From: a virus
Virus record (IMG/VR): IMGVR_UViG_3300031985_000012
Location: 1 to 32,967 of that record
Length of the DNA: 32,967 nucleotides
Strand: one strand, 5' to 3'
The notes beneath the pieces are model-generated. The model was not told the origin of the DNA. It saw only the letters and a list, made by a program, of their open reading frames with translations, and ran no database searches. Below, in pieces: positions 20,053 through 21,777 of this stretch. The position numbers were made by a program, and so were the translations under genes. Position 1 is the stretch's first letter; each line of letters begins with the position of its first letter.

Positions 20053-21063
20053 CTACCTGAACACGTGCAGGGGCTCACCGGCCTTGTAACGGCCCTTGGA
20101 GTCCCGCTCGATCTCGCGCAGCCTGCGGCGCGCGTTCTTCAACTCCAGGTGCGTGGCGATGCCCGCGAAGCCGAGCGTCGCCATGTCCTCAAGCTCGCGC
20201 AGCTCGTGGCGGATCGTCTCCGCGCGGGAGCAGACCAGCCCGGCAGACACCTGGGCCAGGGACGTGTTGAGCGTGATGCTGGACCCGTCCGCCTCGTGGG
20301 CGGCGCGGCGCACGGCGTCCTCGACGGTGAGGAGCAGCCCGCGCGCATCGGCCACGGCCCGCTCGATGGTGCGCAGCTCGGGCATGTAGTTGTTGTAGTT
20401 GGCCACGGCCAGGGCGCGGAGGTCCGGCCCTTCGGGTTCGGGCAGGGCCTTGGGTGCGGCGGCGTCGATCAGGTACTGGAGGAACACCTCGGCCTGGCCC
20501 ACCTGGTCAACGGTCAAGTGGGCGATTTCCTTGACGCCGCACAGTTTGTGGATTTTGCGCCAGGCCGTCTTGTAGACCTCCGGGCTGGGCGTAACGCCCA
20601 AGGCCCCGACGTAGGTGTCCATGAGCGCGGCGAGGCAGTTGCGCTCCTTGGCGGTGGACCGGTGCGAGAGGGCCGGGGCAGGCTCGGGCTGCGCATGGAA
20701 CTGCCCGGTCTTGCGGATCTCGGGAAGGACTTCGGACGCCACCCAGTTCGTGAACTCGTCCGCCTCGGGCTTGTTCGAGCGGAAGGCCAGCTTGTAGACG
20801 GCGGGCTCGGCTATCACGGTGATATCGCCACGGAGGCCACCGCGAGACGCTTCGTTTGGGGTACGGAGTTTCCGAACCCCAACCCACTCGGCCGGGATCA
20901 TCCGCAAGGTTTCTTGCCCGCGCCAGGGGACGGTCAATGCCCCGCAAACATCCTTGGCGACGAACCATGGCTTACCATCTCCGTTTACGACGGTGCGGAT
21001 TTGGTGGTCCTTGAAAGCGAAGGGAACAGGGGACGGCGAGGCGGTGGAGATGGGGCCAGTCAT
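20053..21063 (-). CDS. BRO-N domain phage antirepressor
   Basis: A 336-residue protein on the strand opposite to the late genes. Residues about 14-122 are a BRO-N (Bro/KilA-N-type) DNA-binding domain: FAFKDHQIRTVV, then PWFVAKDVCGAL (33-44), later AVYKLAFRSNKPEADEFTNW and SEVLPEIRKTGQF. Residues about 140-200 (a helix with TYVGALG, a Trp-Arg-Lys-Ile-His region, and a Leu-rich helix) resemble an ORF6C-type C-terminal module; the remaining C-terminus is helical and charged. Such proteins bind or displace prophage repressors and promote lytic growth. It has its own upstream control region, including a leader hairpin overlapping its ribosome-binding site (GAGAGG, 5 bases before ATG). Position between ejection and fibre genes parallels ant in P22 immI. 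Confidence 0.85.
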   Translation of the reverse strand: MTGPISTASPSPVPFAFKDHQIRTVVNGDGKPWFVAKDVCGALTVPWRGQETLRMIPAEWVGVRKLRTPNEASRGGLRGDITVIAEPAVYKLAFRSNKPEADEFTNWVASEVLPEIRKTGQFHAQPEPAPALSHRSTAKERNCLAALMDTYVGALGVTPSPEVYKTAWRKIHKLCGVKEIAHLTVDQVGQAEVFLQYLIDAAAPKALPEPEGPDLRALAVANYNNYMPELRTIERAVADARGLLLTVEDAVRRAAHEADGSSITLNTSLAQVSAGLVCSRAETIRHELRELEDMATLGFAGIATHLELKNARRRLREIERDSKGRYKAGEPLHVFR

Positions 21064-21069
21064 AAAAAC

Positions 21070-21133
21070 CTCTCAGGGAGCTGCTATTGGCACCCTCAAA
21101 TGAAGATGCCGGGCGCTAGCAACCGCCTGAGAG
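21070..21133 (-). promoter_or_regulatory. Leader RNA hairpin sequestering the antirepressor ribosome-binding site
   Basis: In the antirepressor mRNA, CUCUCAGG (from 21133-21126) pairs perfectly with CCUGAGAG (21077-21070). After a 3x3 internal loop, UUGCUA (21122-21117) pairs with UAGCAG (21086-21081); after an asymmetric loop, GGCAUC (21110-21105) pairs with GGUGCC (21094-21089), closing a 10-base loop. That is 20 pairs, two of them G-U. The outer stem covers five of the six bases of the ribosome-binding site GAGAGG (21074-21069). The structure is read directly from base complementarity; translational repression is inference. Confidence 0.65.
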
Positions 21134-21137
21134 CGGC

Positions 21138-21174
21138 CCCGTGGATTTCCCCGAAGGTATTGTATGTCCACGGG
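21138..21174. promoter_or_regulatory. Operator-like inverted repeat around a -10 box
   Basis: CCCGTGGA (21138-21145) and TCCACGGG (21167-21174) form a perfect 8-bp inverted repeat separated by 21 bases. The -10-like TACAAT of the minus strand lies between the arms. A third GTGGATTT-type half-site is at 21213-21220 in inverted orientation. Spacing of half-site centres is close to three helical turns, so a dimeric or tetrameric repressor could cover the promoter. Confidence 0.45.
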
Positions 21175-21305
21175 ACACCCGGCAGCCGGGCATATACGAC
21201 AAAAGGCGCAAAAAATCCACGAATTTCGGTCGCGGTCACCGTCTCAGGCAAGGTGTTGCTAGCACCTGAAAGCGTAGATACGGCGGGGGCTGGTGGGAAG
21301 TCAAG

Positions 21306-21329
21306 AAAAAAGCCCCGCTCGGGCGGGGT
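21306..21329 (-). terminator. Intrinsic terminator of the two small membrane-protein genes
   Basis: On the minus strand a GC stem (complement of GCCCCGC 21312-21318 with GCGGGGT 21323-21329, 4-base loop) is followed directly by six T residues (complement of the A run 21306-21311). This is a textbook Rho-independent terminator, 12 bp after the stop of the 68-aa gene. It separates that gene pair from the antirepressor control region. Confidence 0.85.
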
Positions 21330-21341
21330 CTGGGGGCACGC

Positions 21342-21548
21342 TCATTTAACCTTTCCGGGGGGAGGGGTGAAGGGTTCGCTCCAGTCAGGGGGCAAGCCGA
21401 GCGATTTTTCGATTCGAGCTATTCTCATGTTCGCTTCCATGGCACACCACCAGGCGTTACGCGCTTCTTCTTTTGCCAATGACGCCACATACAAAACGGT
21501 AAGCATCAGCACGGTGTTGATAATAAGCAAGGCGTCACGCCATTTCAT
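21342..21548 (-). CDS. Small single-span membrane protein, unknown function
   Basis: A 68-residue protein beginning MKWRDALLIINTVLML; residues 6-24 form a membrane helix, followed by a charged helix with EARNAWWCAMEANMRIARIEKSLG and a Pro-rich end. The ATG at 21548 has AGAGGT 6 bases upstream and lies 10 bp after the stop of its upstream partner; a GTG at 21593 in the same frame would overlap that partner and is less likely. GC content is lower than in flanking phage genes. It is the last gene before a strong terminator. Superinfection exclusion is one possible role for such immI-located membrane proteins, but no family is recognised. Confidence 0.65.
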   Translation of the reverse strand: MKWRDALLIINTVLMLTVLYVASLAKEEARNAWWCAMEANMRIARIEKSLGLPPDWSEPFTPPPGKVK

Positions 21549-21558
21549 GGAAGTACCT

Positions 21559-21777
21559 CTAGTCTTTCTTGCCGTCTTCAACGATTCGAACACAGACAGA
21601 CACGTCGCCCATTTCGCGCTGTTGTTTTTCCCACTCTATTGCCGCCCTGATCCGTTTTGCTTCCGCCCTGGAACGCAGCCAACTAATGCCGTAAACAATC
21701 GATCCAATGCCAAGGACGATGACCGTCAGGCGAATTTCACCGAGCATGTGATCGATATAAAAGCCCAGGATTTCCAT
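21559..21777 (-). CDS. Small membrane protein with cytoplasmic charged tail, unknown function
   Basis: A 72-residue protein with a membrane helix at about residues 14-35 (IRLTVIVLGIGSIVYGISWL) followed by a basic/acidic helix (RSRAEAKRIRAAIEWEKQQRE) and a short polar tail. A GGGGGGAGGG ribosome-binding site stands right before the ATG. It is cotranscribed with the 68-aa gene downstream. Only 49 bp separate its start from the divergent tail fibre start, and no convincing promoter is visible there; it may lie in the fibre coding sequence. Function not recognised. Confidence 0.65.
   Translation of the reverse strand: MEILGFYIDHMLGEIRLTVIVLGIGSIVYGISWLRSRAEAKRIRAAIEWEKQQREMGDVSVCVRIVEDGKKD

Follow-up and report, generated by a model that had tools for sequence, protein, structure and literature searches.

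The leader of the antirepressor gene in this phage is very probably an antisense module of the C4 type with an sRNA-Xcc1 family RNA at its core, which would keep antirepressor translation off until a target mimic encoded upstream relieves it. The window (the whole stretch of DNA analysed, 32,967 nucleotides, being IMG/VR record IMGVR_UViG_3300031985_000012) appears at 1121-31807 as a temperate podovirus-like fragment, with genes for terminase, head-tail adaptor, internal virion protein, tail fibre, integrase and DNA methyltransferase. The antirepressor gene lies on the minus strand between the virion and tail-fibre genes (Table 1). No CI-type repressor was identified in the window, and no close relative of the leader was found by DNA similarity in plasmids and phages.

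Table 1. Features of the antirepressor unit and its upstream flank on the minus strand
Feature	Position	Strand	Sequence or description	Basis
Intrinsic terminator of preceding small genes	21306..21328	minus	CCCCGCCCGAGCGGGG then T6	sequence
Promoter-like pair	21275..21304	minus	TTGACT-18-TATCTA; would drive the unit	sequence
Hairpin displaying a1	21252..21266	minus	GGTG[CTAGCAA]CACC	also in L240 as GGAG/CTCC
a1	21263-21256	minus	GCTAGCAA; putative mimic of target a2	complementary to a' over 8 bases
b1	21242..21249	minus	GCCTGAGA; putative mimic of target b2	complementary to TCTCAGGC (21132-21125), 8 bases
Terminator-like hairpin with T6	21210..21235	minus	predicted end of a short a1-b1 RNA (~57 b)	
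sRNA-Xcc1 family RNA	21099..21184	minus	three-way junction	Rfam RF02221
b' antisense segment	21125..21133	minus	P3 loop and edge; outer 5' arm	pairs with b2 and b1
a' antisense segment	21115..21122	minus	TTGCTAGC; between P3 and outer stem; middle 5' arm	pairs with a2, and with a1 over 8 bases
Outer stem of leader hairpin	21133-21126 / 21077-21070	minus	CTCTCAGG / CCTGAGAG	sequence
Middle stem of leader hairpin	21122-21117 / 21086-21081	minus	TTGCTA / TAGCAG	sequence; one G-U
Inner stem of leader hairpin	21110-21105 / 21094-21089	minus	GGCATC / GGTGCC	sequence
Hairpin between RNA and target	21089..21110	minus	the inner stem	MFE fold
a2 target	21081..21088	minus	AATAGCAG; just upstream of b2	pairs with a'
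b2 target	21069..21077	minus	CCTGAGAG (21077-21070); overlaps GAGAGG (21074-21069)	8-base pairing with b'
Antirepressor gene	20053..21063	minus	336 aa, Bro-N domain	Pfam PF02498 E 2.2e-17; PHROG anti-repressor E 2e-31

An initial annotation of this sequence had described three stacked stems before the antirepressor start and read them as a switch hiding the ribosome-binding site. All three stems were found at the positions given there, and the 3' arm of the outer stem covers five of the six bases of GAGAGG, which is separated from the ATG at 21063 by a gap of 5 bases. The minimum free energy (MFE) of the leader (21180-21040) was -64.1 kcal/mol compared with -48.03 ± 3.97 kcal/mol for dinucleotide shuffles (z = -4.05), none of 200 being as low, and the annotated hairpin is present within this MFE fold. 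The closest relative, locus L240, keeps all the pairings with different sequences. Folding energy and pairing in relatives thus both support an RNA switch in which the ribosome-binding site of the antirepressor is sequestered. A role for the hairpin as a terminator or attenuator was rejected, its 3' arm not being followed directly by a T-run in terminator-like form.

The annotated picture of a simple cis hairpin did not survive. Its 5' arm lies inside an RNA of the Rfam family sRNA-Xcc1, which had gone unnoticed: with the whole window searched, RF02221 matched over its full length (model positions 1-87) at 53.8 bits (E 4.2e-7), just 0.8 bits above the curated cut-off of 53 bits. This RNA has an outer stem (21184-21176/21115-21107), a P2 carrying the conserved core ATACAATACC...GGGAA (motif at 21165-21156) and a P3 (21136-21123), and when folded alone it forms a three-way junction of -40.1 kcal/mol. 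The outer 5' arm of the annotated hairpin is the segment b' and the middle 5' arm is the segment a', their partners being b2 and a2; the "hairpin" is therefore the cis image of a target and of a separate antisense RNA directed at it, an arrangement like that of c4 in phage P1. The inner hairpin has four bases (21110-21107) in common with the outer stem of the sRNA-Xcc1 RNA, and a2 is short in the window, with a main run of 5 Watson-Crick pairs.

A second feature that had been overlooked is a copy of the hairpin 3' arm at 21264-21242, upstream of the RNA and behind a promoter-like sequence, which matches the 5' arm better than the 3' arm itself does. Within it, the a1/a' and b1/b' matches run over 8 bases each and are at least equal to the a2 and b2 target matches. 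The trigger is most likely this target mimic a1-b1 and not a transcript start inside the hairpin, one of the triggers suggested in the initial annotation: in 28 of 43 relatives TTGAC precedes a1 by about 40 bases (35-43 b), compared with 1 on the reverse strand. The TTGACT of the window is kept at the same spacing in L240. The -10 of the pair is a poor match to sigma-70 and weak, and a consensus promoter scan did not list the pair among its sites. The intrinsic terminator further upstream divides the preceding small genes from the antirepressor unit. Just upstream of the unit, at 21342-21777 on the minus strand, lies a pair of small ORFs (72 and 67 aa, counted from the ATG) that have likely membrane segments and had no match in Pfam or PHROG. 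Immediately before the sRNA-Xcc1 RNA, the sequence ATTCGTGGATTTTTTGCGCCTTTTGTCGTAT (21226-21194 on the minus strand of the window and L240:2340-2368) is invariant, unlike the a and b segments; it may be a processing or promoter signal.

In 34 of 43 relatives, a run of at least five T residues begins 29-38 b downstream of b1. A strict terminator search gave 16/56 loci against 8 on the reversed control, the count of T-runs at fixed spacing being the clearer of the two. Such a terminator would also suit control at the level of transcription, in which the sRNA-Xcc1 RNA and nascent a1-b1 set termination at 21235-21210 in the manner of the CI RNA described for phage P4 (PMC4825925), with pairing at the ribosome-binding site secondary. 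The fixed distance of the terminator past b1 speaks for this, as does the fact that a1 and b1 match at least as well as a2 and b2. Transcription control alone, however, would not require b2 to track the ribosome-binding site close before the start codon, as it does across loci, and we regard this explanation as rather unlikely.

Comparison with L240 showed that the pairings persist while their sequences are exchanged. The antirepressor of L240 has 66% identity to that of the window over residues 1-208 and its leader has the same layout; its sRNA-Xcc1 RNA scores 52.1 bits, just under the RF02221 cut-off of 53, with small E-values for both loci. In L240 a' is GTTCAAG, with a1 and a2 both CTTGAAC, whilst b' is CCGCAGAC, b1 is GTCTGCGG and b2 is CTGCGG. 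At each of the three sites the a and b sequences thus differ from those of the window although pairing is retained, and the stem of the a1 hairpin has changed from GGTG/CACC in the window to GGAG/CTCC. Predicted binding is specific to each locus: complex formation is favoured by 10.7 to 12.4 kcal/mol for cognate partners (10.7 kcal/mol for the window a1-b1 RNA, 21266-21210, with its sRNA-Xcc1 RNA) and by 0 to 2.2 kcal/mol for swapped ones.

For a test across the family, IMG/VR was scanned for ATACAATACCN{2,9}GGGAA, a pattern blind to the a and b segments, which yielded 56 distinct viral cores with an outer stem. Mean Watson-Crick runs of b' were 6.38 against its own downstream region (4.41 for swapped loci) and 6.48 against its own upstream region (swapped 4.67); for a' they were 6.62 downstream (swapped 5.10) and 7.41 upstream (swapped 5.23). 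None of 5000 permutations reached any of these own-locus values. In a position-constrained test, b2 pairing of at least 6 bases was present in 42/56 loci, with 39 distinct b2 sequences; 40 of these 42 loci had a2 too, and 35 had a1 and b1 as well. All four pairings were therefore in register in 35/56 loci, whereas 300 rounds of swapping gave 1.1 loci on average and never more than 6. The same pairings are present at loci in bacterial genomes. A first swap test based on whole-duplex energies had given a weaker signal (rank 1 in 4/56), because a' is partly conserved, and was superseded by these segment-based tests. A further covariance model (R1), derived from an alignment made with MAFFT, had its outer stem misaligned and was left unused. 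The unit is flanked by inverted copies, as might be expected if the repeats were DNA sites for an operator or for recombination and RNA pairing a by-product. Such a reading is extremely improbable, given that almost every locus has its own a and b sequences and yet complementarity is maintained (the 39 distinct b2 sequences) and that the RNA core is conserved and folds as a three-way junction.

For the antisense module, these data suggest the following course of events. A single promoter would give a short RNA made up of a1-b1 and the terminator and, by read-through, the sRNA-Xcc1 RNA together with the antirepressor mRNA, so that a1-b1 would lie upstream on one transcript with the sRNA-Xcc1 RNA. 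Pairing would form between the P3 loop segment b' and b2, which overlaps the ribosome-binding site, and between the junction-strand segment a' and a2, either in cis, as the annotated hairpin, or in trans after excision of an RNA of ~86 b. This pairing would leave the antirepressor untranslated, which would be the default state in the lysogen. Either on its own as a short RNA or within the nascent transcript, the mimic a1-b1 would then take up b' and a' and free the ribosome-binding site. In predicted folds of the window, a1-b1 lowers the cost of opening this site from 10.6 to 6.6 kcal/mol; in L240 the cost falls from 13.2 to 6.9 kcal/mol, and there the MFE structure itself switches between the pairings.

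Nested folding of 36 relatives revealed no significant general effect of the sRNA-Xcc1 RNA or of a1-b1 on site opening. The family as a whole therefore does not commonly work by nested cis folding, and the models make trans or pseudoknot pairing in general more likely than a nested cis hairpin. This bears on whether the leader could be a self-contained cis RNA switch, sensing a ligand, a protein or temperature, with no antisense RNA and with an upstream copy that has no role. In the window phage the nested hairpin is indeed very stable, and opening costs more than 10 kcal/mol from the RNA start onward. The nested hairpin is not the dominant predicted fold in the relatives, however; its 5' arm sits in an independently folding RNA family, and the upstream copy of the target is retained in 35/56 loci while its sequence changes. 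We thus consider a self-contained switch improbable.

The unit follows the annotated order of P1 c4 (promoter, a1, b1, c4, a2, b2, icd, ant). Its RNA also has the topology of C4 (P1/P7; RF01695, with c4-a1b1 as RF03163), namely an outer stem, P2, a P3 loop holding b' and an unpaired a' before the outer 3' strand, and both RNAs target a ribosome-binding site. As in a C4-type RNA, the two antisense segments, in the P3 loop and the junction strand, are complementary to the target ribosome-binding site (b2) and to a site just before it (a2), and the a1-b1 copies of these targets lie upstream of the RNA. For P1 C4, RNase P carries out processing at the outer stem, and both loops of the RNA bind the target (PMC5320573). 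There are two differences: P2 in the window RNA carries the ATACAATACC...GGGAA motif whereas that of C4 is a plain hairpin, and P1 acts via icd whereas the window unit would act directly on the antirepressor. RF01695 and RF03163 had no match in the region up to E 10, RF01394 (the isrK model) had none in the region and RF02221 had none in phage P1. Plain membership of the C4 or isrK families was ruled out by this lack of covariance-model matches.

The upstream half resembles a second known system. In the Salmonella prophage Gifsy-1, a terminated short leader RNA, IsrK, activates a silent read-through mRNA in trans, with experimental support (PMC4825925). The window unit similarly has a predicted terminator-ended short leader RNA (21266-21210) that is complementary to its own read-through mRNA, and by analogy this RNA may be an IsrK-like activator in trans. 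Unlike the window unit, isrK accompanies a C4 RNA and works through orf45. Another known antirepressor system, likened here by description only, is controlled by a processed leader RNA, as proposed for the window. The principle is already known from C4, IsrK and N15; what is new, as far as the searched literature shows, is sRNA-Xcc1 as a C4-type antisense RNA over antirepressors. A literature search, with thin coverage of subscription papers, found no paper with both sRNA-Xcc1 and an antirepressor. In published work sRNA-Xcc1 (Xanthomonas, Xylella) is tied to HrpG/HrpX and virulence, and the targets given for it are predicted ones; in X. campestris it was mapped as an RNA of 88 b (PMC2996969). 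It also occurs upstream of symE in integron cassettes (PMC12444791), a placement that fits a C4-type antisense RNA.

Among 48 proteins encoded downstream of the RNAs, the domains found were Bro-N (10), P22_AR_N (8), Phage_pRha (7), KilA-N (7), AntA (6) and ORF6N (3), i.e., antirepressor-type domains of six Pfam families in up to 41/48 proteins if the family sets are disjoint. PHROG anti-repressor families agreed with these Pfam domains. Other downstream targets were SymE toxins and hexapeptide-repeat proteins. We give roughly equal weight for and against a broader reading, in which sRNA-Xcc1 would form the centre of an RNA toggle that is widespread and self-contained (autonomous promoter, mimic RNA, antisense RNA and target, with addresses that diverge freely) placed before at least six antirepressor-type domain families and SymE toxins. 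Co-resident prophages could therefore run copies that do not interfere with one another, and the role of the RNA in Xanthomonas and Xylella would be control of such genes, not direct control of virulence. This would give a testable job to an Rfam family treated in papers as an orphan, virulence-linked sRNA, and would extend the logic of P1 C4, in which an antisense RNA controls an antirepressor, both to another RNA fold and to many unrelated target proteins. As the addresses diverge while pairing is kept, the target of such an RNA should be predictable from sequence alone and the orthogonality of co-resident prophages measurable.

At three loci (L242, L244 and L261) the sRNA-Xcc1 RNA lies directly before SymE toxin genes, with b'/b2 runs of 5 to 7 bases at the ribosome-binding site. 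RF02221 matches were found in 18/369 gammaproteobacterial genomes (E 1e-6). Two genomes, G040 and G043 (loci L271-L284), hold 14 and 18 matches in 2.0 and 2.3 Mb, respectively; several of these copies precede AntA, Rha or YdcK/hexapeptide-repeat proteins, with a TTGACT...TATAAT-like promoter at the RNA 5' end. The sRNA-Xcc1 copies examined in Bartonella-like genomes may be linked to the Bartonella Brt RNAs (PMC5387305), but Brt genes stand before helix-turn-helix proteins and these copies before AntA, Rha and hexapeptide-repeat proteins. At L001:662-1781 (minus strand), a Gifsy-1-like operon runs from isrK, c4-a1b1 and C4 through a complete sRNA-Xcc1 unit to an ORF6N-type antirepressor and then isrJ, such that two RNA switches of different families are stacked before one gene.
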